A DNA stretch of 64,000 nt from Allobaculum mucilyticum (GTDB lineage Bacteria; Bacillota_I; Bacilli_A; Erysipelotrichales; Erysipelotrichaceae): the NCBI RefSeq assembly GCF_022701195.1, contig NZ_CP078089.1, positions 2,232,001 through 2,296,000 on the forward strand, read 5' to 3'. The notes beneath the pieces are model-generated. The model was not told the DNA's origin, ran no database searches, and worked only from the letters and a program-made list of their open reading frames with translations. Positions 1,519-45,193 of this stretch are shown piece after piece. The position numbers and the translations under genes were made by a program. The first letter of the stretch is position 1; every line of letters starts with the position of its first letter.

Positions 1519-1569
1519 GTCCTGAACGGCCTGTTTTCACTCGCAAAACATGCCACAATAATGAAAAGC

Positions 1570-3152
1570 CAATGTCATTAAGTTAGATAAGGTAGGTCCA
1601 CTCAAACGTTAAGCTTACATGTGATTTTTGGCGTCCAGATTTCTGTCGAGCACGACGAAAAGGGTGATTATTTACCTGTTTAAAAAAATCACCTGGTGGC
1701 TTTCTCGATTCTCAGAACTTTTGGTCAGCGCTTCTTTTTGCGCTTATCCGCTCGCCCTGGACGAACGGACTGCGTCTTATGAAGGATCAAATTGATCAGC
1801 TTGTCTGCGGTATAAACTCCGCTGTCCCATAGAAACGCGTGAACCGCAGTGATCAGAAATGCGTAATCTGCCTTCTGTTCCCACTTCCTCTTCATGGCAT
1901 TTCGGCAGCGTTCAGCGAATTCCTGACTGTTTTCAACCTTGTTTCTGATCCGGGAATACAGGTTGTAGAGCGTCATTTTCGCGAAGACTTCTCCAATGAC
2001 CAGTTCCTTCTTGCGTCCATGCACATCCTTCAGTCCAATCCGCTCTTTGATATCTCGATACGAGAGCTCAATTTGCCAGCGGAGTCGGTAGATTTCACAG
2101 AGATCCTCGGTGGTGAATTCATCAAACGGCAGGTTGGTAAAAAGTGTGATGAAAGACTCAATCCCTTCGCAGACCGTTTTATAGCGTACGACTCTGCCGT
2201 GGAGCGGCAGTTCAGTCACTCCATTCTGGAATTCCGGATGTTTTGAATAGGACGAGATGTATTTGTAGGTTTCCCAGTTTGCCTTGACATGGGAGTTGTT
2301 TTTACACGTCAAAGTCACATCGAATGGAATGTCATATTCTTCAGTATCTGGTGTTGGATAGTGCTTCAGAATACTGGTAGAGGAAGATTCGTCCTTGATT
2401 CGGATGACGAAATGCTTATCGGTCTGATTCAGACGATAGAAAGTCATAAGCGCTTCATAGCCTCTGTCGCAAATGAAGATCGCCTTTTCTCCTTCGTATC
2501 GCTGAGCCAGCTCCAGAAAAGCTGAGTCCTCGTTCTTCTGAGAACCTGGCTGCATCACCAGATCGAGATAAACATGGTTGAGCACGTCATACAGCGGATT
2601 CGCAAGGTAAAAATGGTGCTTGGATCCCTTTTTCGATCCGCCATAGGTAGACATGTCATTCCCATCGGGGCTGACTGATAGTTCAGAACCGTCGACGCTC
2701 AATAGTCGCCATCCATGAAACGTTTTGTCATCCTCCGAAGAGAACAAATCGTTCATGCGATAGAAGACGTGAGAGTAAAGCAAGAACCTGATTTTCTGTC
2801 TGCCCTGGGAAATGGCAGATAAAGAAACGTCGGACAGAGAATCAGGAAGAATGGGAAGAGATCGGTTGATCGAGCGATCTTCCGTCTGGTAGGCCACGGC
2901 TGCCAGATCGACAGCGGAAAGCCTGCGGGAGCGAGAGAAGTCAGAATCCGGGTGGAGCAGATTGTCAGAATTGGATGCTTCTTCTTTGATGAAGCGCTTG
3001 AGAGCAGCCGACTGCAGGTTGCAGAATGTGTTAAGTGAGGGCATAAGATTTTTCCTTTCCGTCACTTAACGGGCCGCGAAGCGGCCGCACGATTTGAGTT
3101 ATAAAACAACCTGATATTCCCGAAAAACCGAATATTACAAACAAATAACCGA
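1570..3152 (-). mobile_element. IS4-family element, copy A (right end deleted)
   Basis: The left terminal repeat CAATGTCATTAAGTT is intact at 1570. The element matches copy B until about 3152 and then jumps into an IS256-type transposase sequence, so the last roughly 90 bases, including the other terminal repeat, are missing. A minus-strand terminator hairpin (1657-1695) follows the transposase gene. A GC-rich hairpin (3070-3090) precedes its ribosome binding site, as in the other copies. Confidence 0.85.
1725..3044 (-). CDS. IS4-family transposase (copy A)
   Basis: This 439-residue DDE transposase would cut and paste the element. Catalytic Asp residues are visible in SVDGSEL (D118) and FICDRGYE (D193). 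The IS4 signature Y-(2)-R-(3)-E-(6)-K is exact at Y319-K333 (YRLRWQIELSYRDIK). I chose the ATG at 3044, with GGAAAGG nine bases upstream, rather than the GTG at 3065. The frame is intact. It is closely similar to copy B and clearly related to, but distinct from, the transposase of copies C and D. Because its element has lost one end, it can act only with the far end of copy B. Confidence 0.93.
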   Translation of the reverse strand: MPSLNTFCNLQSAALKRFIKEEASNSDNLLHPDSDFSRSRRLSAVDLAAVAYQTEDRSINRSLPILPDSLSDVSLSAISQGRQKIRFLLYSHVFYRMNDLFSSEDDKTFHGWRLLSVDGSELSVSPDGNDMSTYGGSKKGSKHHFYLANPLYDVLNHVYLDLVMQPGSQKNEDSAFLELAQRYEGEKAIFICDRGYEALMTFYRLNQTDKHFVIRIKDESSSTSILKHYPTPDTEEYDIPFDVTLTCKNNSHVKANWETYKYISSYSKHPEFQNGVTELPLHGRVVRYKTVCEGIESFITLFTNLPFDEFTTEDLCEIYRLRWQIELSYRDIKERIGLKDVHGRKKELVIGEVFAKMTLYNLYSRIRNKVENSQEFAERCRNAMKRKWEQKADYAFLITAVHAFLWDSGVYTADKLINLILHKTQSVRPGRADKRKKKR

Positions 3153-3366
3153 TGCGATCGAGTCGGTTAACTCCAGGCTGCGAAAAGTAACAAAAAAGGG
3201 CTCGTTTCCAAGTGAGGATTCAGTTTATAAGGCCTTGTATCTGCGCATTGTGGAGCTCGAGAAGAAATGGCAGGGACGAAGGGTTCCAAACTGGTCAATG
3301 GTACGTAATCAGCTCCTGTGTGAGGAGGAACTGAGCGCTAGATTGGAGAAGTACTCAGCCAGGTAA
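3148..3366 (+). pseudogene. IS256-family transposase, C-terminal remnant
   Basis: An open frame of 72 residues begins at the breakpoint with IS4 copy A. It reads TDAIESVNSRLRKVTKKG to LSARLEKYSAR, the C-terminal end of the transposase interrupted at 43118-46024; only one of the shared residues differs (SRLRKV against SSLRKV). The N-terminal 80% is missing, so this is a relic. The change ACCAAT to ACCGAT at 3148-3153 marks the fusion point. Confidence 0.9.
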
Positions 3367-3638
3367 GCAGCAGATCTGGAATCCGCTTATGAAATTTTCC
3401 TGCGCTTAACCCCTTTACAGCGGGTCCTCGCTCCCCCTGCACCCCCAAGAGACGTCCCCACCGTCGAAAAAATGCCATCCTGGCAGGGACGTCACCAGTC
3501 TAGCAGGGGGCGCCCGCTATAAAGGGCAGCTCCAGAAAATTTCACTCGCTCATCGTCCGGCGAGGTGTTTTGAACCTACGAAACGGCCAAATGTTTCAAC
3601 TACCAAAAACGGATTTACACAAAATATTTGACATACCC
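3149..3638 (+). mobile_element. IS256-family element remnant (3' part and one terminal repeat)
   Basis: This carries the transposase tail, the roughly 270-base noncoding 3' region and the terminal repeat ending in TTTGACATACCC. The 3' region appears identical to that of the full element at 42846-46115. It includes a long nested hairpin at 3411-3526. The element ends only 14 bases before the start codon of the protease gene, so insertion here would have separated that gene from its own promoter. Confidence 0.85.
3411..3526. repeat. Long nested hairpin in IS256 3' region
   Basis: Three sets of arms nest: CCCTTTACAGCGGG (from 3411) with CCCGCTATAAAGGG (3513-3526), then CCCCCTGC with GCAGGGGG, then GACGTCCCC with GGGACGTC. 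The same structure lies at 42958-43074 in the second copy. It falls between the transposase stop and the terminal repeat. Confidence 0.8.
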
Positions 3639-3652
3639 AGAAGGGAAACGTT

Positions 3653-4298
3653 ATGAGAGTAAAAGAATTGTCTTTTGGTTTAACCTTAGCTTTTTCGTTT
3701 CTGTCTATCTCCCCTTATCAAAATCAGGTTTTAGCTGCTGAATTTAGCGAGACGGAAGATATTAAAGAAGATTACAGTTTTGAATTAGAGCACTCTGATC
3801 GAACTGAAGTAGTTGAGGGAAGTGAAATCACTAATACTGAAATCTCCAGCTCAGATAATTTGCTTGAACCAAATAGTATTATTGGTGGAGACAATAGAGT
3901 AAAAGATCCTTCGCCAAGAAGTTTTCCAGCTTTAGCTACTGTCTATCTTGAGATTACTTGGGAAAACGGGAAAAATACATGGATGACAGGGGCGATGATC
4001 GGCAAAGATTTGGTTATGACATGTGGGCATGCTGTTTTTAGTGTCAATAACTATGGCTGGGCAAAGAAAATCACTGTCCATGCAGGAGTGGTAAATAGTG
4101 CATCCCTTTATATTTCGGAAGGACGCACTGTCATGACTCCAAGGGAATGGAAAGACAGTAAGAGTGCAAATGATGATATAGCTTTGATTAGATTGAACAG
4201 TGATTTGGGATCAAAGACTGGTTGGTACGAAGTTATTAAAGAGGTTGCAGTTGGTGATAATTTTGTAACTCGTGGCTATCCTGAAGATCGCTATTTAC
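3653..4298 (+). pseudogene. Secreted V8-like serine protease, N-terminal half (interrupted by IS4 copy C)
   Basis: A signal peptide (about residues 1-29, ending LAA) is followed by a polar propeptide and the first part of a trypsin-fold, glutamyl-endopeptidase-like (S1B) domain. Catalytic His is in TCGHAV (H126) and Asp in NDDIALI (D175). The frame enters the IS at 4299 and stops after a few foreign residues. Removing the IS and one copy of the 10-bp duplication CGCTATTTAC joins this exactly in frame to 5959-6599 and gives a 428-residue protein. RBS AGAAGGG precedes the ATG. An exported proteolytic role is inferred; the gene is now broken unless the IS leaves precisely. Confidence 0.9.
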
Positions 4299-4323
4299 CA
4301 ATGTCATTAAGTTAAGATTTCTC

Positions 4324-4361
4324 AGACCACATCAGCGTTAAGCAGTGATGTGGTCTTTTTT
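4324..4361 (+). terminator. Protective terminator at the 5' end of IS4 copy C
   Basis: AGACCACATCA pairs with TGATGTGGTCT and is followed by a run of six T. It lies between the IS end and the transposase gene, where it would stop outside transcription from reading into the transposase, a known way for IS4/IS231-type elements to limit their activity. Copy D has the same at about 43569-43606. Confidence 0.8.
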
Positions 4362-4487
4362 CTACTCTTCAAGTCAAATCTCGAATGATTCGAGTTTTTT
4401 CACTTTTTTCTAAAAATCTATTGACAAATTTCTGCCGCCGCGCGGCTGCTTCGCAGCCGATGGGGAGAACTTAAAGGAGTTTTCCCT

Positions 4488-5798
4488 ATGACTGCTATCG
4501 CCAAAGAATGTTCTTTCTTCAGAAACACCTTCCTCAATATCATCAGCTCAGAAACGGCGAACCCTGCCAATTTTACTTCTCAGTCCGCCTTCACCCGTAA
4601 GCGGCAGATTGACCTGCATGAGCTTGTCCTTCTTCCGTTTCAGCTGACAGAGGAATCCCTCGCTGCTTCCTTTCCCTGGATCCTGTTTAAGGGCGGATCA
4701 TCTGTTTCAGCCTCTGCTGTGTCTCAGGCCCGTTCCAAAATCAACTCTTCACTTTATAAAAACGTCTTCAATCGGTTTAACAAGGCAACTTCCAGCTCTG
4801 ATGTTAAAACCTTCAAGGGTTATCGCCTCCTCGCTGTAGATGGAAGCGAGATTCAAGTTCTTCCTGAACAGGACAATGACATCACCTATGGCGCTTCTAA
4901 AAAAGGCAAGAAGAGGCACTTTGTTCATTTGAATGCCGAATTCGACGCCCTCAACTCCGTCTTTACTGACGCGCTGCTTCAACCCGGCTCTGAGAAGAAT
5001 GAAGATTCAGCTCTTCTTGAACTCGCTCAGCGTTCTTCATTTCAGAAAGCCATCTTCATCGCTGATCGGGGATACGAAGCTCTTATGTCTTTCTATCGCC
5101 TGCAGAAGGAACATGTCCCTTTTGTCATACGTATCAAAGACGAGACATCATCTACAAGCATTCTCAAGTACTATAAGACTCCCGAGTCAGAAGAGTATGA
5201 CATTCCTTTCAATGTGATTCTGACCAGTAAAAACAACAGGCATGTCAAAGACCATTGGGATGTCTATAAGTACATCTCTTCGTACAGGAAGCAGCCTGAA
5301 TTTGACGGTCAAACGACTGAACTCCCTTTAAATATCAGGGTTGTGAGGTTCAAAGCTGCCTGCGAAGGGAATGAATCATTCATTACCGTCTGCACCAATC
5401 TGTCGGAAGCTGAGTTTGGGACCGAGGACATCAAGCAGATCTACCGTCTGCGCTGGCAGGTTGAAGTCGGCTTCAGGGGACTGAAACGAAACACCGATCT
5501 TGAATGGACTCATTCAAGGAAGCTTGATCTGGTCCAGGCAGAGATCTATGCCAAAATGACTCTCTACAATCTTTGTTCCCGTTTGCGCAACAAGGTAGAA
5601 AGATCTCGTCAGCACCAGAAGCGCATCGCTCAGGCCAAAAAGCACAAGCAGAAGGCAGATTTCGGATTCATCATCAAAACGATTCAACAGTGGCTGTTCA
5701 AAAAAGCCAGAATCAGCTTGAGTACACTGGAAGATCTTCTTCTGGCCAGGATATCTCCGATCAGAGAAGGAAGAGCTGATACCAGAAAGAAGAAGTGA
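4488..5798 (+). CDS. IS4-family transposase (copy C)
   Basis: This 436-residue intact DDE transposase has D118 in AVDGSEI and D193 in FIADRGYE, with the IS4 signature YRLRWQVEVGFRGLK near residues 319-333. RBS AAAGGAG precedes the ATG; a GC-rich hairpin (about 4440-4460) sits just upstream of it. The protein is the same as that of copy D and related to, but distinct from, copies A and B. It is likely active, judged by the intact frame, perfect ends and fresh target duplication. Confidence 0.95.
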   Translation: MTAIAKECSFFRNTFLNIISSETANPANFTSQSAFTRKRQIDLHELVLLPFQLTEESLAASFPWILFKGGSSVSASAVSQARSKINSSLYKNVFNRFNKATSSSDVKTFKGYRLLAVDGSEIQVLPEQDNDITYGASKKGKKRHFVHLNAEFDALNSVFTDALLQPGSEKNEDSALLELAQRSSFQKAIFIADRGYEALMSFYRLQKEHVPFVIRIKDETSSTSILKYYKTPESEEYDIPFNVILTSKNNRHVKDHWDVYKYISSYRKQPEFDGQTTELPLNIRVVRFKAACEGNESFITVCTNLSEAEFGTEDIKQIYRLRWQVEVGFRGLKRNTDLEWTHSRKLDLVQAEIYAKMTLYNLCSRLRNKVERSRQHQKRIAQAKKHKQKADFGFIIKTIQQWLFKKARISLSTLEDLLLARISPIREGRADTRKKK

Positions 5799-5823
5799 CA
5801 GATTTGAAAACCGAAAAGTCATC

Positions 5824-5860
5824 AGGATGATTTTTTCAACAGGTAGAAAATCATCCTTTT
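5824..5860 (+). terminator. Terminator after transposase of IS4 copy C
   Basis: GGATGATTTT pairs with AAAATCATCC and TTTT follows. The same hairpin is in copy D at about 45069-45105. Confidence 0.8.
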
Positions 5861-5958
5861 CGTCATGCCTGAGACGCAAAATATAAGAAATGACAACGCT
5901 CACGAACAGGGTATACGATTTTTATCCCTCCTTAACTTAATGACATTGCGCTATTTAC

Positions 5959-6599
5959 AAGAAAAAAAACACAACCTTTGGAAATCGACTGGAACAGTTA
6001 CTCAGATCACCCAGAAGAGGATTTTTCATAATGCAGATACTGTTGGCGGTCAAAGCGGCAGTCCTCTCCTTAAAGATAACAAATTGTTCGGGGTTCACGG
6101 CTATGGTGTAGGAGGTAATGTATCATATAATGGAGCGACAAGAATAAACGATAGAGAACTAAATTGGATAAAAGGATATGCTCATGATGCTCTTCCCGTA
6201 TATAGTGTTTATAGTCAAACAACTGGAGAACATCTGTATACCTCTAAAATGGTTGAAGTGAATAGCTTGGTTACGATGTATGGCACACCATGGAAGTTTG
6301 AGAAAGCAGCTTGGAGCGGAGCAACAACAGGGACTCCAGTTTATCGTTTATATAACCCAAATGCTGGAGACCACCATTACACCATTTCAGCAAGTGAACG
6401 AGATTCTTTAGTTCGCCTCGGCTGGAAATATGAAAACATTGCTTGGAATGCCCCAAACGCTTCTTCGAAACCGGTTTATCGCCTATATAATCCAAATGCG
6501 AAACAGGGATCCCACCACTACACTCTGGATTCTGGGGAGCGAGATGTTCTGGTACGCTTAGGTTGGACTTATGAAGGAATTGCATGGTACAGCGCATGA
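5959..6599 (+). pseudogene. V8-like protease, C-terminal half with three DUF5648 repeats
   Basis: This continues the gene begun at 3653. The catalytic Ser motif GGQSGSPL lies 30 residues after the junction (Ser about residue 248 of the restored protein). Three DUF5648-type repeats of about 40-48 residues follow, built on PVYRLYNPN..GDHHYT...ER..LVRLGWKYE.IAW; the first is degenerate. DUF5648 repeats are common at the ends of exported Firmicutes proteins and may bind a surface or wall ligand; that role is inference. The open frame can be read back into the IS (to 5865), but nothing there resembles a start of this gene. The stop overlaps the next gene. Confidence 0.9.
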
Positions 6600-7468
6600 A
6601 AAAGATTACCACTGGATTTATTACGACTGCTTTTGGCATTTTGACTGTTTTTCATACTCCTGTCTATGGCCAGGAACAGTTTGACGCACCGATCCCGGAA
6701 ATTGAAGCCTTTGATCTGGTTGAATATGTAACAGTCGGCGAGTCAGGAACTTATAAAAGCAGTGTTGAAGAATGGTGCAAAGAGAAAGTAGAGTACAGTC
6801 TGGCCATTGGAAGCTCGGATAATTCTGTTCTTCAGGTCAATGAGAATAATGAATTTATCGCTGTAAAAGAAGGAAAAGTCCTGTTGATCTGGTCTTATAC
6901 ACTGTCAGAGGAAACGACAGACCGGCTTCACAGAAAATGGCCGAATGTCGATTTCTCTCTTCCTGAGGAGGTCATTTGTCAGACAGTTTATGTGACGAAT
7001 AATAAGCCGGTTTATCGCTTATACCATCCGGGGTCGGGTGAACATCTTCTGACGACAGATAAAAACGAGTATCGTCTCCTGTATAAAAATGGCTGGAAGG
7101 CTGAACAGAGCAGATGGCTATCCGACCAGTCTGATACTGCAAAGCTGGACGTTCACCGACTGTACAATCCCAATGCCAGTGACCATCACTACACAGCAGA
7201 CATGCAGGAAATTGCATATCTGTTATCCGCCGGATGGAAAGACGAGGGTGTGGCTTTCCATTCCGGCACACTGGGCGGACAGGCAGTTCCAGTCTATCGT
7301 CTGTATAACCCGAATGCCATAACCGGATCCCACCACTTCACTGCAAGTCTTGAAGAATGCAAAGCACTGCAGCGGGCCGGATGGATCTTCGAGGGGATCG
7401 GCTTCAATGTTCTTCCTCTGAGAACAGATCAGGCAGATCTGGGTATAACAGGTCCGGAAGCTGAATAA
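6584..7468 (+). CDS. Exported DUF5648-repeat protein
   Basis: The protein has 294 residues. An N-terminal signal peptide (MKKITTGFITTAFGILTVFHTPVYG) leads to an Ig-like or unknown acidic domain of about 110 residues, then three DUF5648 repeats (PVYRLYHPGSGEHLLTT, VHRLYNPNASDHHYT, PVYRLYNPNAITGSHHFT). The ATG at 6584 has AAGGA five bases upstream; the ATG at 6596, which overlaps the previous stop as ATGA, is the alternative. It is translationally coupled to the protease and probably works with it outside the cell. A paralogue with the same layout is at 41878-42783. No catalytic motif is seen. Confidence 0.85.
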   Translation: MVQRMKKITTGFITTAFGILTVFHTPVYGQEQFDAPIPEIEAFDLVEYVTVGESGTYKSSVEEWCKEKVEYSLAIGSSDNSVLQVNENNEFIAVKEGKVLLIWSYTLSEETTDRLHRKWPNVDFSLPEEVICQTVYVTNNKPVYRLYHPGSGEHLLTTDKNEYRLLYKNGWKAEQSRWLSDQSDTAKLDVHRLYNPNASDHHYTADMQEIAYLLSAGWKDEGVAFHSGTLGGQAVPVYRLYNPNAITGSHHFTASLEECKALQRAGWIFEGIGFNVLPLRTDQADLGITGPEAE

Positions 7469-7670
7469 ACTTACAGAGCGAAAAAATTTGTCGCTTGAAA
7501 ACTATGACTCTTCAAAAATATTGAGGTTTTGATTCTTATGAGCTTTCCAAAGGTTCTTACGCAAACTTTGTTGGCGCTCTAAATTTTGTTGAGGTTTTGA
7601 TACCTACGAGCTTTTCAAAAGCTTGAGGTTTCAAAACCTCATTTTTGCTTAAAGGGAACCTGGACTGTCA
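7469..7670 (+). repeat. Subterminal repeats and terminator left of the ISL3 unit
   Basis: Two copies of a motif like CTAAATTTTGTTGAGGTTTTGA occur (about 7512-7533 and 7578-7600; 68 bases apart). Each is followed by a small hairpin (AGCTTTTCAAAAGCT at 7609-7623). A strong terminator with arms TGAGGTTT and AAACCTCA and a T-run is at 7624-7646 and would end the DUF5648 transcript. Inverted relatives of the repeat lie at 9856-10033 on the other side of the ISL3 unit. Confidence 0.6.
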
Positions 7671-9113
7671 TTACGTTCCCTTGTCTTCTTTCTCGAACGG
7701 CTCCAATCTAAAGGCTGGCCGATTCAATACGTACAGGACGCGATTTCTGAATCGCTTCCAGTTCGTGTATCCATTCGCGTTGTTCTTGATCTGTTTCACG
7801 AGTTTGTTTCGATTTTCGATCATAGAAGAAGTCAGCCGGTGATCCTTTCTTCGAGCTTTTCCGTTCTTCTTGTCAACGACGTACTCCGTCTTGACGATCT
7901 CGAAAAATTAACGATCTCCCTGAACCAGTTGACTACAGTCTGTCCGAATGCGTTAAGTTCCTTAACCTGGGACCGGTTAAGATCTGCGAGAATGACCTGC
8001 AGCCGATCGGCGGCATCCGCCTTTGTTCCATTTCTAAAGAACTCGCTCAGGGTATTTCGCATTTCACAGGCTTCCGTAAGATCATCGCTGATACTCAGCA
8101 GAAGCTCACGGAGCTCAACTCGTTTAACCACGTCTTGAAGTGGGCATTGCAGGTGCGTTCACCGTTCGGATCAAATACGTTTACCCAAATATCTTTCTTC
8201 TTTGAATATGGATCTGGATTTTTAAGCCTCTTTTGCATTGGGCTTAACTCCGAGAAGGTGATTCTGGTGTTTCAGAAGGTAATATTCATCGGACCCTTTC
8301 AGGGTGCCTTTCATCGTCCGGATGCGGACCTCAGTCAGTCGCCTGTTGAATTCCTGCATCACATGGAACCTGTCACGGGCATAGATCGCGTCTGGAAAGA
8401 ACTTTTACAGACAACCCTGTAAGTCTCGTACATATCCGCTGCAATAAACCGAACATTTGTCTCTCTTCCAGCGGGAAACTGCTGAAGAAGTCGATAAGAT
8501 CCTGCTTTTTCCGGCTGGGAAGCAGATCAACAGCGGTCTGTGTGTCGTAGTCCAGAAGCATGCATACATAGACTGAGGTTCCCGACTTAAAGGAATAAGT
8601 CTCGTCAAGCTGCAGCACGCGGGGAAGCGTTGTCGCTTTGGGGATCTGGACATGATCGTCGAAGATGTGCTGAACAGTCGCAGGCGAGAGATTATAGCGC
8701 TTGGCGACTGATGTAAATGTTACGGCTGGGTCTCTCATTTCCTCGAGGACGCATACGACAGTAGAGACCGAGATCCTCTGCTTCTTGAAAACGAAGGGAT
8801 TAAATTCATACCAGGTACGATTACATACCGGACATTTATAGCGGCGGGCATGATAGTTAATCTGACAGCGGCAGTTATGAAGAATTGAATGAGTTATTGT
8901 TTTGTCCACGTAGTTACAGACATTCGGATGCTCATGTCCGCATCTTGGACAGGGTGGATAATCCGGTTTTAAAGTGACGTTGATAATGACTAAATCACCC
9001 AGATTGGTAGACGAAAGACTCTCGACGGCGTTCTGATCTAGTCCATAGAGCTCAAGAACGGAATTTTCGAGAGAAGTTATCGGTACATTACGGGTTTCTG
9101 CCTTCTTGCGCAT
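7671..9113 (-). pseudogene. ISL3-family transposase, frameshifted
   Basis: Read from 9113 down: N-terminal zinc-finger part (PPCPRCGHEHP, then YKCPVCNRTWYEF), an HTH region (FTSVAKRYNLSPATVQHIFDDH) and the start of the DDE domain (VLQLDETYSFKSGTSVYVCMLLD). The C-terminal part is in other frames (ELRELLLSISDDLTEA; VVNWFREIV; IKNNANGYTNWKRFRNRV) and ends at the stop at 7671. AAGGAGG precedes the ATG at 9113. At least three frame changes between 8400 and 7840 make it inactive as written. Total span, about 480 codons, fits the family. Confidence 0.88.
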
Positions 9114-9170
9114 AGTCCTTCCTCCTTAGTGATGGCAGATTCTCATAGGAGGGAGAAATGACGCGTCACG

Positions 9171-9717
9171 TTATAGGTTGAAAAATCGAAAATGCAGAAA
9201 TCCAGGAGAAATCATCAGGTAAGGACCGATTTTTACTGCGGAACATGTGAATAGATCGTTGAAAGTGCGCAGTCGTTTAAGAACGGCAGAAAAGCGCTTC
9301 TTCATCTGGTTTAGAAAGCGGTAGGCCGTCGATGCATCAACCAGTCCGTTGGACTGCTTGGAAACTGGCTTTCCACTGTTGTGAAGCTGAATGATTTCAG
9401 CAGCGGTGTCGCTGCAGATCTGGAAGCTGGGAATGACGAAAAGCGGCAGAACACGATGGGTTCTGCCGCAATGTGGGCAATGGACTCGGTGGATAGTGAG
9501 GCTTACTACGGTTTTGTGCCGATTGGATCTTAACACTTCGGTTGCATGTGTCATGGCGGTACAGTCGATGTCCGCAATCAGGGCGAACAGGATGACCAGC
9601 CATAAAATGATCGTAGTCCTGGTTGTATTCAGACTGAAGGTGATATTGGATAGCAGTCGAATCCAAATCTGTATTCTTAAGGAGATCGTTGTTAAGGGCC
9701 TGCCCTATTGTTATCAT
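9171..9717 (-). pseudogene. Zinc-ribbon ORF (DUF6431-like), frameshifted
   Basis: Two overlapping minus frames make one decayed gene. The first (from 9717) gives ITIGQALNNDLLKNTDLDSTAIQYHL and PDCGHRLYRHDTC. The second carries on with SLTIHRVHCPHCGRTHRVLPLFVIP and a helical tail. The paired C-x2-C motifs and the THRVLP segment resemble DUF6431-type proteins found beside transposases in Firmicutes. A frame change near 9530 separates the halves. It sits directly upstream of the ISL3 gene and probably belonged to the same mobile unit. Function unknown. Confidence 0.6.
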
Positions 9718-9736
9718 ATAGATGCCTTTCTGGGCA

Positions 9737-9786
9737 GGACGAAACCTTTTGAGTGGCCAACTTCAAATGGGGTTTCGTCCTTTTTT
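9737..9786 (+). terminator. Terminator-like hairpin with T-run
   Basis: GGACGAAACC pairs with GGTTTCGTCC across a 24-base loop and six T follow. It lies just upstream of the minus-strand zinc-ribbon ORF, so on the plus strand it would block reading into the unit end. Confidence 0.65.
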
Positions 9787-9855
9787 ACACTTTGTTACTC
9801 TAACTGTATTTCGTGGAAAGCTCTTTCAATACCCTAAGTCTCAGAGAGGCGAAAA

Positions 9856-10033
9856 CCTCAAGAAAATGGATAGGGGGAGGTGTCAGCTTCCAGGGGGCAT
9901 GGTCCGAGCTATGTCTAATGCCCCCTTCAGCTGGCACCTCCCCCAGCCTCAGAAACTTTAAAGGTCGCCTTAGCCTCTTGAGGTTCGCACCTCAGAAAAC
10001 TTTATAGGCCTGTGCCCACCTCAAGAAATTTTA
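9856..10033. repeat. CCTCAAGAAATTTTAG-type repeats at the right end of the ISL3 unit
   Basis: Four related copies read CCTCAAGAAAAT (9856), CCTCAGAAACTTTAAA (9947), CCTCAGAAAACTTTATA (9990) and CCTCAAGAAATTTTAGA (10019). They are in inverted orientation to the two at 7512-7600. A short inverted pair CCTCTTGAGG sits at 9974-9983. Confidence 0.55.
9873..9944. repeat. Strong 72-base hairpin
   Basis: The outer arms GGGGGAGGTG and CACCTCCCCC continue as CAGCT with AGCTG after a one-base bulge on each side. Inner arms GGGGGCAT (9893-9900) pair with ATGCCCCC (9918-9925). It is embedded among the CCTCA repeats and overlaps no recognised gene. It could be a mobile-element end structure or a small RNA. 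Confidence 0.75.
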
Positions 10034-10230
10034 GATTGTCTTTTTTGAGGCTGTTGTAGTACCTGTGGGTAGTCAATGTCATTAAGTTAGATAAAAGGTA
10101 GGTCCACTCAAACGTTAAGATTACATGTGATTTTGGCGTCCAGATTTCTGTCGAGCACGACGAAAAGGTGATTATTTACCTGTTTAAAAAAAAATCACCT
10201 GGTGGCTTTCTCGATTCTCAGAACTTTTGG

Positions 10231-11547
10231 TCAGCGCTTCTTTTTGCGCTTATCCGCTCGCCCTGGACGAACGGACTGCGTCTTATGAAGGATCAAATTG
10301 ATCAGCTTGTCTGCGGTATAAACTCCGCTGTCCCATAGAAACGCGTGAACCGCAGTGATCAGAAATGCGTAATCTGCCTTCTGTTCCCACTTCCTCTTCA
10401 TGGCATTTCGGCAGCGTTCAGCGAATTCCTGACTGTTTTCAACCTTGTTTCTGATCCGGGAATACAGGTTGTAGAGCGTCATTTTCGAAGACTTCTCCAA
10501 TGACCAGTTCCTTCTTGCGTCCATGCATCCTTCAGTCCAATCCGCTCTTTTGATATCTCGATACGAGAGCTCAATTTGCCAGCGGAGTCGGTAGATTTCA
10601 CAGAGATCCTCGGTGGTGAATTCATCAAACGGCAGGTTGGTAAAAAGTGTGATGAAAGACTCAATCCCTTCGCAGACCGTTTTATAGCGTACGGCTCTGC
10701 CGTGGAGCGGCAGTTCAGTCACTCCATTCTGGAATTCCGGATGTTTTGAATAGGACGAGATGTATTTGTAGGTTTCCCAGTTTGCCTTGACATGGGAGTT
10801 GTTTTTACACGTCAAAGTCACATCGAATGAAATGTCATATTCTTCAGTATCTGGTGTTGGATAGTGCTTCAGAATACTGGTAGAAGAAGATTCGTCCTTG
10901 ATTCGGATGACGAAATGCTTATCGGTCTGATTCAGACGATAGAAAGTCATAAGCGCTTCATAGCCTCTGTCGCAAATGAAGATCGCCTTTTCTCCTTCGT
11001 ATCGCTGAGCCAGCTCCAGAAAAGCTGAGTCCTCGTTCTTCTGAGAACCTGGCTGCATCACCAGATCGAGATAAACATGGTTGAGCACGTCATACAGCGG
11101 ATTCGCAAGGTAAAAATGGTGCTTGGATCCCTTTTTCGATCCGCCATAGGTAGACATGTCATTCCCATCGGGGCTGACTGATAGTTCAGAACCGTCGACG
11201 CTCAATAGTCGCCATCCATGAAACGTTTTGTCATCCTCCGAAGAGAACAAATCGTTCATGCGATAGAAGACGTGAGAGATAAAGCAAGAACCTGATTTTC
11301 TGTCTGCCCTGGGAAATGGCAGATAAAGAAACGTCGGACAGAGAATCAGGAAGAATGGGAAGAGATCGGTTGATCGAGCGATCTTCCGTCTGGTAGGCCA
11401 CGGCTGCCAGATCGACAGCGGAAGCCTGCGGGAGCGAGAGAAGTCAGAATCCGGGTGGAGCAGATTGTCAGAATTGGATGCTTCTTCTTTGATGAAGCGC
11501 TTGAGAGCAGCCGACTGCAGGTTGCAGAATGTGTTAAGTGAGGGCAT
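10231..11547 (-). CDS. IS4-family transposase (copy B), with two internal out-of-frame stretches
   Basis: The 438-residue frame is open from the ATG at 11547. It matches copy A except in two blocks read in the wrong frame and then restored: residues about 42-90 (PLSIWQPWPTRRKIARSTD and on, where copy A has SAVDLAAVAYQTEDRSINR), and a block after the RDIK of the IS4 signature (RADWTEGCMDARRNW, where A has ERIGLKDVHGRKKEL). Each is explained by small opposite indels. Catalytic D, D and E lie outside the altered blocks. It is probably inactive as written, or the indels are sequencing errors. Confidence 0.8.
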   Translation of the reverse strand: MPSLNTFCNLQSAALKRFIKEEASNSDNLLHPDSDFSRSRRLPLSIWQPWPTRRKIARSTDLFPFFLILCPTFLYLPFPRADRKSGSCFISHVFYRMNDLFSSEDDKTFHGWRLLSVDGSELSVSPDGNDMSTYGGSKKGSKHHFYLANPLYDVLNHVYLDLVMQPGSQKNEDSAFLELAQRYEGEKAIFICDRGYEALMTFYRLNQTDKHFVIRIKDESSSTSILKHYPTPDTEEYDISFDVTLTCKNNSHVKANWETYKYISSYSKHPEFQNGVTELPLHGRAVRYKTVCEGIESFITLFTNLPFDEFTTEDLCEIYRLRWQIELSYRDIKRADWTEGCMDARRNWSLEKSSKMTLYNLYSRIRNKVENSQEFAERCRNAMKRKWEQKADYAFLITAVHAFLWDSGVYTADKLINLILHKTQSVRPGRADKRKKKR

Positions 11548-11679
11548 AAGATTTTCCTTTCCGTCACTTAACGGGCTGCGAAAACGGCCGCACGATTTGA
11601 GGTATAAAACAACCTGATATTCCTGAAAAACCGAATATTACAAACAAATAACCGATATGTTCTGCTAAGAAAAAAGACA

Positions 11680-11720
11680 AAGAAAAGAGACCTCTCCTCC
11701 AATCAAGGAGGAAAGGCCTC
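11680..11720 (-). terminator. Protective terminator upstream of copy B transposase
   Basis: GAGGCCTTTCCTCC and GGAGGAGAGGTCTC form the stem on the minus strand, with a T-rich stretch after it. It has the same position relative to the gene as the 4324 hairpin in copy C. Confidence 0.65.
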
Positions 11721-11799
11721 AATCAACTAAACTTAATGACATTGATGAAAAGCAAATAAAAAAATATAACCGGCTGAAGCCTGAGAAAGGAGATATCCA

Positions 11800-12909
11800 A
11801 TGCCTGCATCTTTTCGAAAATCCGATCACTCCACAGAACAAGCGAGAATCATTCATTCCGGCATGATCGGTACAGCCAAGTGGACCATTGATGAAGACGG
11901 CCTTCTTGTGATTGGTGAAGGAATGCTCAATACAGATGATCTGCCCGCTTCAGCTCATCCTGAAGGGGCGAGCAGCGATCGCTGGCCATGGTATGCGTAT
12001 CATCATGAAATTGACGCGGTCGATGGAAGTGCGCCATTTAAAATCATCGGCGATTTAAGCTATGCCTTTGGCGGCGATGAGCCAAAATCCATCAGCAAGC
12101 GCGGTCTGTACACGTCCATTGAAACGATGGATCTGTCCGGCTGGGATACAAGTGAAGTGACATCCATGCGAGGCCTGTTTTATGACTGCGGCGGAATGAC
12201 GCATGTCAACGTGAGCAGCTTTGATACCGGTAATGTAAAAGATTTCTCGGATCTGTTCAGCGGCTGCTTCAGTCTGCATGAACTCGATGTCACAAATTTC
12301 AGAACAGGTCTGGCAGAAGATATGTCCGGCATGTTTTCAAGCTGCTATCTGATTACAGAACTGGATGTCAGCCGCTTTAATACCGCACAGGTTAAAAACA
12401 TGAATGGCATGTTTTCGTTCTGTCACCGCCTTGAAGAGCTCGATCTTTCCAGATTTGATACCTGGCAGGTTGAAAACATGAGCTTCATGTTCTGCGGATG
12501 CAGGGGACTGCGAAAAATCGATGTTTCCAGCTTTGAAACAGAACGGGTGAAGAGTTTTGATTTCATGTTTTCCGACTGCAGTTCGCTCCGTTCCCTGGAT
12601 TCAGGAAAGTTTCATACAGGGCAGGCGACGACGCTCTTTAAGATGTTTTCCGATGCGTTCATGCTTGAAGATCTGAATGTGGCAGATTTCAATACGCAGA
12701 ACGCCCGCTATACGCAGAAGATGTTTGATGGCTGTCAGTCACTAAACAGAGTGGTCTATGGAGCCGGTCTGCACAAAACGTTTAAAGCCTTCCGGACTAA
12801 GTTTCCAAGAGGTAAGTGGTACCAGAAAGGCAAAGGTCCGTATTCCGTCTCTTCACTGCCAGTTCCTGAACAGGGAGAAAAGGCAGTGCTGACGCGCAAA
12901 GAAAAATAA
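11800..12909 (+). CDS. BspA-type leucine-rich repeat protein (DUF285 repeats)
   Basis: The protein has 369 residues. After about 105 N-terminal residues, including a GTAKWTIDEDGLLVIGEG motif typical of BspA-family starts, come eight or nine repeats of about 24 residues of the form LDVS.F.T..V.NM..MF..C..L. Family members are usually surface or secreted proteins that bind host or cell components. This one has no signal peptide or LPXTG motif that I can see, and in-frame stops lie just upstream, so the start (RBS AAAGGAG) is firm. It either stays inside or leaves by another route. It lies just right of the composite element. Confidence 0.85.
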   Translation: MPASFRKSDHSTEQARIIHSGMIGTAKWTIDEDGLLVIGEGMLNTDDLPASAHPEGASSDRWPWYAYHHEIDAVDGSAPFKIIGDLSYAFGGDEPKSISKRGLYTSIETMDLSGWDTSEVTSMRGLFYDCGGMTHVNVSSFDTGNVKDFSDLFSGCFSLHELDVTNFRTGLAEDMSGMFSSCYLITELDVSRFNTAQVKNMNGMFSFCHRLEELDLSRFDTWQVENMSFMFCGCRGLRKIDVSSFETERVKSFDFMFSDCSSLRSLDSGKFHTGQATTLFKMFSDAFMLEDLNVADFNTQNARYTQKMFDGCQSLNRVVYGAGLHKTFKAFRTKFPRGKWYQKGKGPYSVSSLPVPEQGEKAVLTRKEK

Positions 12910-42783: not shown

Positions 42784-42957
42784 AGCTCCTTTTCATTTAT
42801 TTTTTACAGAATATCAGCATCTATAACCAATTTAATGTTTCGTTGGGGTATGTCAAATATTTTGTGTAAATCCGTTTTTGGTAGTTGAAACATTTGGCCG
42901 TTTCGTAGGTTCAAAACACCTCGCCGGACGATGAGCGAGTGAAATTTTCTGGAGCTG

Positions 42958-43074
42958 CCCTTTATAGCGGGCGCCCCCTGCTAGACTGGTGACGTCCCTG
43001 CCAGGATGGCATTTTTTCGACGGTGGGGACGTCTCTTGGGGGTGCAGGGGGAGCGAGGACCCGCTGTAAAGGGG
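42958..43074. repeat. Nested hairpin in IS256 3' region, second copy
   Basis: CCCTTTATAGCGGG (42958-42971) pairs with CCCGCTGTAAAGGG (43060-43073), GCCCCCTGC with GCAGGGGG, and GACGTCCCTGCC with GGTGGGGACGTC. It appears identical to the copy at 3411-3526. Confidence 0.8.
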
Positions 43075-43117
43075 TTAAGCGCAGGAAAATTTCATAAGCG
43101 GATTCCAGATCTGCTGC

Positions 43118-43534
43118 TTACCTGGCTGAGTACTTCTCCAATCTAGCGCTCAGTTCCTCCTCACACAGGAGCTGATTACGTACCATTGACCAGTTTGGAA
43201 CCCTTCGTCCCTGCCATTTCTTCTCGAGCTCCACAATGCGCAGATACAAGGCCTTATAAACTGAATCCTCACTTGGAAACGAGCCCTTTTTTGTTACTTT
43301 TCGCAGGCTGGAGTTAACCGACTCGATCGCATTGGTTGTATACATCACCTTTCTGACAGCACTGCCGTAGTTAAACAGCTGCCGCACATGATGAAAGTTA
43401 CGTTCCCACACGCCTACCGCACCAGGATAACGGCACCATTTCTCCTTAAATTCATCGAAAGCAGCCTCTGCTTCATTAGCGTTCAAAGCACCGTAGACTC
43501 TCTTGATGTCGTTGCAGAAACCGGCTTTTTCTTT
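43118..43534 (-). pseudogene. IS256-family transposase, C-terminal part (split by IS4 copy D)
   Basis: The frame gives KEKAGFCNDIKRVYGALNANEAEAAF, the RYPGAVGVWERNFHHVRQLFNYG region and MYTTNAIESVNSSLRKVTKKG, the conserved C-terminal block with the last catalytic Glu (E in NAIES). It joins the part at 45194-46024 exactly in frame (LKYIP then TKEKAG) when IS4 copy D and one 9-bp repeat are removed. The whole would be about 415 residues, a normal length for the family. Confidence 0.92.
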
Positions 43535-43543
43535 GGTCGGAAT

Positions 43544-45193
43544 CAATGTCATTAAGTTAAGATTTCTCAGACCACATCAGCGTTAAGCAGTGATGTGGTC
43601 TTTTTTCTACTCTTCAAGTCAAATCTCGAATGATTCGAGTTTTTTCACTTTTTTCTAAAAATCTATTGACAAATTTCTGCCGCCGCGCGGCTGCTTCGCA
43701 GCCGATGGGGAGAACTTAAAGGAGTTTTCCCTATGACTGCTATCGCCAAAGAATGTTCTTTCTTCAGAAACACCTTCCTCAATATCATCAGCTCAGAAAC
43801 GGCGAACCCTGCCAATTTTACTTCTCAGTCCGCCTTCACCCGTAAGCGGCAGATTGACCTGCATGAGCTTGTCCTTCTTCCGTTTCAGCTGACAGAGGAA
43901 TCCCTCGCTGCTTCCTTTCCCTGGATCCTGTTTAAGGGCGGATCATCTGTTTCAGCCTCTGCTGTGTCTCAGGCCCGTTCCAAAATCAACTCTTCACTTT
44001 ATAAAAACGTCTTCAATCGGTTTAACAAGGCAACTTCCAGCTCTGATGTTAAAACCTTCAAGGGTTATCGCCTCCTCGCTGTAGATGGAAGCGAGATTCA
44101 AGTTCTTCCTGAACAGGACAATGACATCACCTATGGCGCTTCTAAAAAAGGCAAGAAGAGGCACTTTGTTCATTTGAATGCCGAATTCGACGCCCTCAAC
44201 TCCGTCTTTACTGACGCGCTGCTTCAACCCGGCTCTGAGAAGAATGAAGATTCAGCTCTTCTTGAACTCGCTCAGCGTTCTTCATTTCAGAAAGCCATCT
44301 TCATCGCTGATCGGGGATACGAAGCTCTTATGTCTTTCTATCGCCTGCAGAAGGAACATGTCCCTTTTGTCATACGTATCAAAGACGAGACATCATCTAC
44401 AAGCATTCTCAAGTACTATAAGACTCCCGAGTCAGAAGAGTATGACATTCCTTTCAATGTGATTCTGACCAGTAAAAACAACAGGCATGTCAAAGACCAT
44501 TGGGATGTCTATAAGTACATCTCTTCGTACAGGAAGCAGCCTGAATTTGACGGTCAAACGACTGAACTCCCTTTAAATATCAGGGTTGTGAGGTTCAAAG
44601 CTGCCTGCGAAGGGAATGAATCATTCATTACCGTCTGCACCAATCTGTCGGAAGCTGAGTTTGGGACCGAGGACATCAAGCAGATCTACCGTCTGCGCTG
44701 GCAGGTTGAAGTCGGCTTCAGGGGACTGAAACGAAACACCGATCTTGAATGGACTCATTCAAGGAAGCTTGATCTGGTCCAGGCAGAGATCTATGCCAAA
44801 ATGACTCTCTACAATCTTTGTTCCCGTTTGCGCAACAAGGTAGAAAGATCTCGTCAGCACCAGAAGCGCATCGCTCAGGCCAAAAAGCACAAGCAGAAGG
44901 CAGATTTCGGATTCATCATCAAAACGATTCAACAGTGGCTGTTCAAAAAAGCCAGAATCAGCTTGAGTACACTGGAAGATCTTCTTCTGGCCAGGATATC
45001 TCCGATCAGAGAAGGAAGAGCTGATACCAGAAAGAAGAAGTGACAGATTTGAAAACCGAAAAGTCATCAGGATGATTTTTTCAACAGGTAGAAAATCATC
45101 CTTTTCGTCATGCCTGAGACGCAAAATATAAGAAATGACAACGCTCATGAACAGGGTATACGATTTTTATCCCTCCTTAACTTAATGACATTG
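43544..45193 (+). mobile_element. IS4-family element, copy D (1650 bp) with 9-bp target duplication
   Basis: The perfect terminal repeats are the same as in copy C. GGTCGGAAT is repeated at 43535-43543 and 45194-45202. Copies C and D have the same length and the same transposase; I saw one base difference near the right end. The copy sits inside the IS256 transposase gene and is thus the younger insertion here. Confidence 0.95.
43733..45043 (+). CDS. IS4-family transposase (copy D)
   Basis: The 436-residue protein is identical in sequence to the copy C transposase (4488-5798) and has the same catalytic D118, D193 and YRLRWQVE signature. The RBS and upstream hairpin are the same. The frame is intact and the element ends are perfect, so it is likely functional. 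Confidence 0.95.
   Translation: MTAIAKECSFFRNTFLNIISSETANPANFTSQSAFTRKRQIDLHELVLLPFQLTEESLAASFPWILFKGGSSVSASAVSQARSKINSSLYKNVFNRFNKATSSSDVKTFKGYRLLAVDGSEIQVLPEQDNDITYGASKKGKKRHFVHLNAEFDALNSVFTDALLQPGSEKNEDSALLELAQRSSFQKAIFIADRGYEALMSFYRLQKEHVPFVIRIKDETSSTSILKYYKTPESEEYDIPFNVILTSKNNRHVKDHWDVYKYISSYRKQPEFDGQTTELPLNIRVVRFKAACEGNESFITVCTNLSEAEFGTEDIKQIYRLRWQVEVGFRGLKRNTDLEWTHSRKLDLVQAEIYAKMTLYNLCSRLRNKVERSRQHQKRIAQAKKHKQKADFGFIIKTIQQWLFKKARISLSTLEDLLLARISPIREGRADTRKKK

Follow-up and report, generated by a model that had tools for sequence, protein, structure and literature searches.

The block at positions 1570 to 11744 of the window, by which we mean the whole stretch of 64,000 nucleotides of Allobaculum mucilyticum DNA analysed here, is most likely an IS4-family composite transposon that was inserted as a unit (probability about 0.82). 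Its ends are exact and carry matching 9-bp flanks, the two copies of IS-A that bound it, A and B, have the same orientation, and three further composites occur in the same genome. The 9-bp sequence, ATGAAAAGC, lies immediately outside A and B, as established by reading the sequence, computing the flanks and re-reading them, and the block and its surroundings are made up as follows:

1561..1569, no strand: left copy of the 9-bp target repeat ATGAAAAGC (sequence and end reading)
1570..3153, minus (transposase strand): IS-A copy A, IS4 family, positions 1-1584 of 1673, inner 89 bp missing; 0 differences from the 1673-bp consensus
1725..3065, minus: transposase of copy A, IS4 family, open frame of 446 aa (DDE_Tnp_1; NF033592 138.4 bits against a cut-off of 115; YREK motif)
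3147..3638, plus: 3' 492 bp of an IS256-family element, now joined to A; on the 5' side ~1,120 bp are lost (sequence comparison)
3653..4298, plus: 5' part of a gene for a trypsin-like exported protease, broken by copy C (PF00089 E=7e-6; export signal by eye)
4299..5948, plus: IS-C copy C, IS4 family, 1650 bp, with the 10-bp repeat CGCTATTTAC at 4289-4298 and 5949-5958
5949..6599, plus: 3' part of the protease gene, with a DUF5648 domain at its end (PF18885 E=9e-47)
6584..7468, plus: DUF5648 protein, open frame of 294 aa, probably exported as judged by eye (PF18885 E=1.4e-66)
7574..10039, minus: ISL3-family element whose transposase is fragmented, each end placed to within a few bases (copies elsewhere)
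10065..10073, no strand: inner left flank of B, GTGGGTAGT (end reading)
10074..11744, minus: IS-A copy B, 1671 bp, both ends kept; 8 substitutions and 12 small indels
11745..11753, no strand: right copy of the 9-bp target repeat ATGAAAAGC (sequence and end reading)
11800..12909, plus: BspA-like / PARCEL-repeat surface protein immediately beyond the right end; three congeners lack it here

The preliminary description of this DNA had placed the shared repeat correctly to the base, and end reading bears out its statement that A and B point the same way. At the outer junction of A, ...CAATAATGAAAAGC meets CAATGTCATTAAGTTAG, the first base of A being 1570, and at that of B, AACTTAATGACATTG meets ATGAAAAGCAAATA, the last base of B being 11744. 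The arrangement is that of a composite transposon: two ISs with intact outer ends bound cargo that is not IS, and one repeat is common to those outer ends, the inner flank of B being different and that of A lost. As had been described, the inner end of A is deleted, with 89 bp gone at the junction with an IS256-family remnant; because A gives way to this remnant at IS position 1584 of 1673, its right flank is unreadable. The claim that B has no duplication of its own also holds, its left flank GTGGGTAGT differing from its right flank ATGAAAAGC, and copies C and D have the 10-bp (CGCTATTTAC) and 9-bp (GGTCGGAAT) repeats ascribed to them. Presumably GTGGGTAGT is the target repeat from an earlier insertion of B itself; the 85 right flanks read do not include its partner, and among them there is thus no donor scar for B. 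To call the two outer ends the only working pair was too strong, as B and C keep two ends each and unlike pairs have moved in this genome.

How unusual such shared flanks are can be judged from a table of 84 left and 85 right ends of the IS group in the one-contig genome, from which six exact ends are known to be missing. A repeat of at least 8 bp is present at 62 of 81 IS-length end pairs (33 of 9 bp, 29 of 10 bp); the other 19, some of which belong to composites, have no matching flanks, and rearranged ends are thus common in this genome. The IS at 1,010,063 is an example of a copy without matching flanks. Among 58 left/right end pairs lying 1.8-20 kb apart, four share a flank of 9-10 bp and the remaining 54 match over 0-3 bp, against ~2x10^-4 matches of 9 bp expected by chance. 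Elsewhere in the table a flank match of at least 8 bp is found in 1 of 7,001 other end pairs, and this one probably links the donor and the product of another composite.

The three flank-sharing pairs other than A-B are composites too. Two of them are copies of a 4,523-bp unit, consisting of IS-C, cargo encoding a YjcQ-like protein, and IS-A, at 1,001,671 and 2,059,174; they are 99.93% identical (3 substitutions, 0 indels), each with a private 10-bp repeat. The third is a 6,032-bp unit at 282,273-288,304, in which IS-C and a third IS type enclose genes for a ThrE-type exporter and whose 10-bp repeat is ATCTTATCGC. In a second copy of this 6-kb unit, at 514,822-520,826, the left IS still has its own 9-bp repeat, GTCTACAAC, which is also seen on the inner side of the unit at 282,273-288,304, and the second copy was probably the donor. 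The two 6-kb units differ by 28 indels and 14 substitutions (BLAST counts 31 gaps and 7 mismatches). Both the 4,523-bp (IS-C/IS-A) and 6,032-bp (IS-C/third type) units resemble A-B in their terminal repeat CAATGTCATTAAGTT, their IS group and the logic of their end repeats, and differ from it in having 10-bp repeats, two copies each and other cargo. All three precedents are units of unlike ISs, none with two copies of IS-A.

Since these three composite insertions from the same IS group exist here, entry of the whole block as one unit, as originally proposed, is its most likely history. The preliminary description had also raised another route, recombination of a circle carrying an IS into a resident IS; here a single IS-A would first have inserted at ATGAAAAGC, and a circle with the cargo and one IS-A would later have recombined into it homologously. 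This is possible because A and B are the same IS type in direct orientation, and it would yield the same end structure, two direct copies with a repeat only outside; near-identical copies of IS-A are numerous (19 matches at ≥98% identity, A and B counted), and one-IS circles that insert beside a resident IS have been described for IS26, in the relevant part of PMC7986276. However, IS26 belongs to the IS6 family, not to IS4, and homologous insertion into a resident IS fails for the three other composites because all of them join unlike ISs. It is the substitutions that make the circle the less likely history for A-B: relative to the IS-A consensus A has 0 and B has 8, spread over positions 45-1552, so that a single crossover would have to fall within the first 45 or the last ~120 of 1,673 bp, roughly one tenth of the IS. 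This crossover argument would carry less weight if another copy had later converted A.

Two further readings compete with insertion as a unit. An assembly artefact, with identical IS copies wrongly joined over 10 kb, is very improbable, for a mistaken join would leave the 9-bp match of the outer flanks unexplained, cargo that has no second DNA copy would have to be enclosed by two false joins, and the genome is a single contig; in its favour are the repetitiveness of IS-A, with its 19 matches, and the many small, mostly homopolymer indels (28 between the 6-kb units, 12 in B), as in imperfectly polished long reads. Still more improbable are a coincidental flank match between two independent insertions and recombination of IS copies that lie far apart. 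Several other copies do lack matching flanks, so rearranged ends occur, but the count among the 58 near pairs, set against the ~2x10^-4 expected, rules out a chance match of the outer flanks, and exchange between distant copies, after which outer flanks are normally unmatched, is rejected on the end-pairing table.

For the composite transposon, a plausible course begins with a protease gene and a DUF5648 gene flanked by two copies of the 1,673-bp IS-A. The outermost ends, A's on the left and B's on the right, would have been bound by a DDE transposase, and the whole block would have been cut out and pasted upstream of the BspA-like gene, with 9 bp of target (ATGAAAAGC) being copied. That the IS-A transposase acts by cut-and-paste is suggested by its target repeats: 17 copies of IS-A have both ends, 13 of these have a repeat of their own, and it is 9 bp in 13 of 13 and 10 bp in none (0/13). 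An IS256 element would have inserted upstream of the protease, a later deletion fusing it to the inner end of A, and IS-C would have inserted into the protease gene.

In Tn5 and Tn10 the IS copies are inverted and the cargo consists of resistance genes; one IS copy may be defective, and the outer ends are those used. Like A-B, these transposons have two IS4-family copies around cargo, and in part of PMC2266710 the family is described as moving by cut-and-paste, with IS10 and IS50 forming Tn10 and Tn5 and making target repeats of 9 bp and 8-9 bp, respectively. A-B differs from them in its direct copies, its surface-protein cargo, the loss of an inner end to the IS256 fusion and the further ISs inside. 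Directly repeated ISs around cargo are also a feature of IS26 pseudo-compound transposons and translocatable units, and the outline of A-B would also result if a circle of the IS26 type entered a resident IS. The IS6 family makes 8-bp repeats and forms cointegrates (PMC7986276, in part), and A-B has neither the IS6 transposase nor the 8-bp repeats of an IS26-type pseudo-compound transposon; it has an IS4 transposase and a 9-bp repeat, and the genome has repeats of 9-10 bp and other units with unlike ISs.

Assignment of the flanking ISs to the IS4 family rests on several features. The family is defined by a Y-(2)-R-(3)-E-(6)-K motif and D(60~110)D(100~150)E spacing (PMC2266710, in part), which the IS-A transposase matches with D125, D200, E333 and YRLRWQIELSYRDIK, and the IS-C and third-type transposases with D118, D193 and E326. 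With NF033592, a curated IS4 transposase model with a cut-off of 115, the flanking-IS transposases score 138.4, 151.1 and 153.9 bits, and the 9- and 10-bp repeats are about one helix turn long, as in this family. Of the end signatures given in Table 1 of PMC2266710, those of IS4 (-AATR--------WTW) and IS4Sa (CA------T) are both compatible with CAATGTCATTAAGTTA, and IS size and repeat length are nearer IS4Sa.

The transposases of IS-A and IS-C are 52% identical, and IS-A, IS-C and the third IS type (~1,695 bp) end in the same 15-bp terminal repeat. The target repeats of the three insertions with unlike ends are all 10 bp, a length found in 28 of 44 IS-C copies having a repeat, in 1 of 5 such copies of the third type and in 0 of 13 of IS-A, which suggests that the IS-C transposase cut an IS-A end, at least for the IS-C/IS-A unit. 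It is tempting to speculate, though only tentatively, that the ends are interchangeable among three or more diverged lineages of the IS4 family, so that DNA between any pair of outward-facing ends can be moved, making the genome a cross-compatible mobilisation network. If so, such a network would form composites from unlike ISs and scatter genes for surface proteins and transporters. The marks of composite transposition are seen here in a gut bacterium with surface-protein and transporter genes as cargo, not drug resistance, and the presence in one genome of an apparent donor and product of another unit, together with units of unlike ISs, makes IS end compatibility directly testable. A-B itself adds to a known class of composite transposons; of greater interest is that unlike ISs have their ends in common. 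In a literature search with most subscription journals outside it, we found no earlier description of composites of unlike ISs, or of Allobaculum together with insertion sequence and transposase; the words insertion, transposase and DUF do not occur in the accessible part of PMC8409761 (Allobaculum mucolyticum).

The insertion site had been described as lying between dnaI and the BspA gene. This is not simply so: in the three congeners, of four, where dnaI was matched, dnaI is directly followed by fba and the BspA-like gene is absent at this place, which makes that gene itself an addition. Near relatives, compared as one genome per species, yielded no empty site. An attempt to recognise one by promoter likeness, aligning the joined flanks with the sequence that precedes the BspA ortholog in congener G001, was rejected, as shuffles scored as high: 13 of 500 for the joined flanks, 19 for the last 110 bp, 127 for the left flank, 19 for its last 80 bp and 67 for the right flank. 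A short likeness to the G001 promoter region seen by eye is missing from the best alignment, and no conclusion rests on it.

The same cargo was also sought elsewhere. This genome has no second copy of the A-B unit or of the cargo DNA, the plasmids searched contain no near match to the 10.2-kb block, and a contig scan, from which records of the same or a very near genome were possibly excluded, gave 16 pattern matches to the DUF5648 gene, none confirmed as relatives. The IS-A transposase matches plasmid ISs at <60% identity throughout (~30% among the 10 matches listed), and at E<=1e-60 in a draw of 115 genomes of the family, whose listed members leave out 93 without a match and do not show G001 or G003, it was found in this genome and once in G002 (45%). 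The terminal repeat is present in congeners G001 and G003. The murG-sortase place was considered as a candidate donor site: in G003 a DUF5648 gene (56% identical) lies beside sortase-murG with an IS end just upstream, and the corresponding place of the present genome has no match to that gene.

Within the block, the cargo had been given as an exported protease and DUF5648 proteins; the protease gene is split by copy C and is not intact. A large share of the block is made up of other ISs (IS-C, the IS256 remnant, ISL3). The first five bases of the IS256-family remnant also resemble A, and a copy elsewhere with an open frame is classed as IS256. The ISL3-family element has imperfect 8-bp flanks chosen by eye (CTTTGTTG / CTTTTTTG), and its transposase fragment scores 97.4 bits with NF033550, under the cut-off of 180; elsewhere in the genome there are 18 full-length and 5 nearly full copies of this element.

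The block that lies between dnaI and the BspA-like gene (1570-11744) is bounded by two copies of IS-A, a 1,673-bp IS4-family element with a perfect 15-bp terminal repeat, CAATGTCATTAAGTT, both in the same orientation. Reading from dnaI, it consists of copy A (1570-3153), an IS256-family remnant, a protease gene split by IS-C, a DUF5648 gene, an ISL3-family element and copy B (10074-11744). The shared 9-bp target repeat proposed in the preliminary description is borne out, as ATGAAAAGC is read once beyond the left end of A and once beyond the right end of B. A has no differences from the IS-A consensus across positions 1-1584 whereas B carries 8 substitutions (three at sites that are variable in other IS-A copies too) and 12 small indels; they are therefore two distinct copies and not a recent duplication of one. 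Since small indels outnumber substitutions in parts of the assembly (3,144,153 bp, single contig), sequencing errors may account for part of the damage to the B transposase.

IS-A, IS-C and a third IS type (~1,695 bp) are IS4-family elements with a common terminal repeat. An own 9-bp repeat flanks 13 of the 17 two-ended IS-A copies, twelve of them complete and one cut down to 1,661 bp, and repeats of IS-A are 9 bp long in 13/13 cases; the four copies without one are B, two within the 4,523-bp units listed below and one at 1,010,063. Repeats of IS-C are 10 bp in 28/44 copies and 9 bp in 16/44, and those of the third type 9 bp in four copies and 10 bp in one. The IS-A copy at G000:1,010,063-1,011,735 (L063:10064-11736; G000 is the source genome, and L numbers are loci cut from it) keeps both ends, but its flanks differ and none of the other ends read pairs with it.

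Ends with the common terminal repeat were compared genome-wide (84 left, 85 right). The set includes 71 of the 74 forward and 75 of the 78 reverse exact ends counted by pattern, leaving out six, together with 20 IS-A ends missed by the pattern and three ends with one mismatch. Among 81 IS-length pairs, 62 have a 9- or 10-bp repeat and 19 have none. Outside these, a match of 9-10 bp occurs in five pairs, four of which are collinear and span 4.5-10.2 kb; for left and right ends 1.8-20 kb apart (n=58) the match is 9-10 bp in four and 0-3 bp in the other 54. The fifth pair, left end 514,822 with right end 283,922, is the only one to match over at least 8 bp among the 7,001 other end pairs. Further composite units in the genome are as follows:

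G000:1,001,671-1,006,193 (L063:1672-6194), 4,523-bp unit, site 1, 10-bp CGCAAACGTT on either side
G000:2,059,174-2,063,696 (L064:4175-8697), 4,523-bp unit, site 2, 10-bp TTCTCTACCC on either side
G000:282,273-288,304 (L266:4274-10305), 6,032-bp unit, 10-bp ATCTTATCGC on either side
G000:514,822-520,826 (L146:9823-15827), second copy of the 6,032-bp unit and probable donor, no common outer repeat

The 4,523-bp unit, whose two copies are three substitutions apart, contains IS-C, cargo with a YjcQ-like gene and IS-A; the 6,032-bp unit contains IS-C, ThrE-type exporter genes and the third IS type. Between the 514-kb and 282-kb copies of the latter there are 14 substitutions and 28 small indels. 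The left IS of the 514-kb copy has its own GTCTACAAC on its two sides, and an identical nine bases recur inside the 282-kb copy, as would be expected of the donor and product of composite transposition.

Taken together, the outer ends, the repeat, the orientation and the precedents, all four of them observed, make it likely (with a probability of roughly 0.8) that the block is a composite transposon of the already known IS4 family, inserted as one unit. A circle carrying the cargo and one IS-A could instead have recombined into a resident IS-A. It counts against the main reading that none of the three precedent insertions is made of two IS-A copies, unlike the block here. All three join unlike ISs (two pair IS-C with IS-A, the other pairs IS-C with the third type), an arrangement not accounted for by homologous recombination with a resident IS, and we consider recombination of such a circle unlikely. 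The most notable point is that cargo may have been moved jointly by unlike ISs whose ends are identical, a suggestion based on three insertions of two units; the 10-bp repeats of the IS-C/IS-A unit would point to the IS-C transposase.

If the block did transpose as a unit, the transposase would have paired the left end of A with the right end of B, and the block would have been excised and then inserted through a 9-bp staggered cut. The inner flank of B, GTGGGTAGT, is presumably a remnant of its own former insertion; none of the 85 right ends read is flanked by it. An IS256-family copy may once have sat upstream of the protease start (8-bp repeats are present at 6/7 IS256-family copies tested elsewhere in the genome), and a later deletion would have taken 89 bp of A, ~1,120 bp of IS256 and anything between; the two sides of the joint show little sequence likeness (AACCGAT vs AACCAAT). 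Before or after that deletion, IS-C split the protease, leaving a 10-bp repeat behind. What counts against transposition as a unit is that neither an empty site in a near relative nor a second copy or donor scar was found for the block.

Insertion between dnaI and the BspA gene, as originally described, holds for the present position of the block, but the BspA gene is itself absent from the corresponding interval in three congeners. The gene called dnaI (DnaI is its best NCBIfam match, below cut-off; DnaI_N is at the Pfam cut-off) has DNA-level matches in G001, G002 and G004 out of four congeners; in each of these three, fba (fructose-bisphosphate aldolase) follows directly with neither block nor BspA gene between. 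The BspA gene would thus also have been gained here, or lost in all three; its closest homolog, 59% identical, lies at another location in G001. The block may have cut the gene off from a promoter. The BspA-like gene (11800-12909) has PARCEL-type repeats (TIGR02167, five stretches).

The cargo had been described as protease and DUF5648 proteins, and both genes are present, but the protease, which has a terminal DUF5648 domain, is broken by IS-C. The genus shows a strong expansion of DUF5648; of 35 relatives searched, its five genomes have 59, 34, 40, 19 and 38 matches and the remaining 30 have none. For 40 loci of the source genome, collapsed from 51 of the 59 matches, the fraction within 2 kb of IS-group ends is 0.33 vs 0.14 after circular shifts (reached by 1/2000), and within 5 kb 0.45 vs 0.26 (5/2000), a closeness that could mean insertion tolerance as well as mobilisation. 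At a paralogous locus (2,964 kb; L070:5898-6953), the opening part of a comparable protease gene is joined to a similar DUF5648 gene in what looks like a fusion, and two large serine recombinase genes adjoin it.

In the region 42846-45193, copy D of IS-C sits inside an IS256-family copy at the target ATTCCGACC, which is also used beside IS256 sequence by an IS-A copy (L004, G000:3,018 kb); the 19-base site is found in 7/7 IS256 copies checked, making it a repeated target site.
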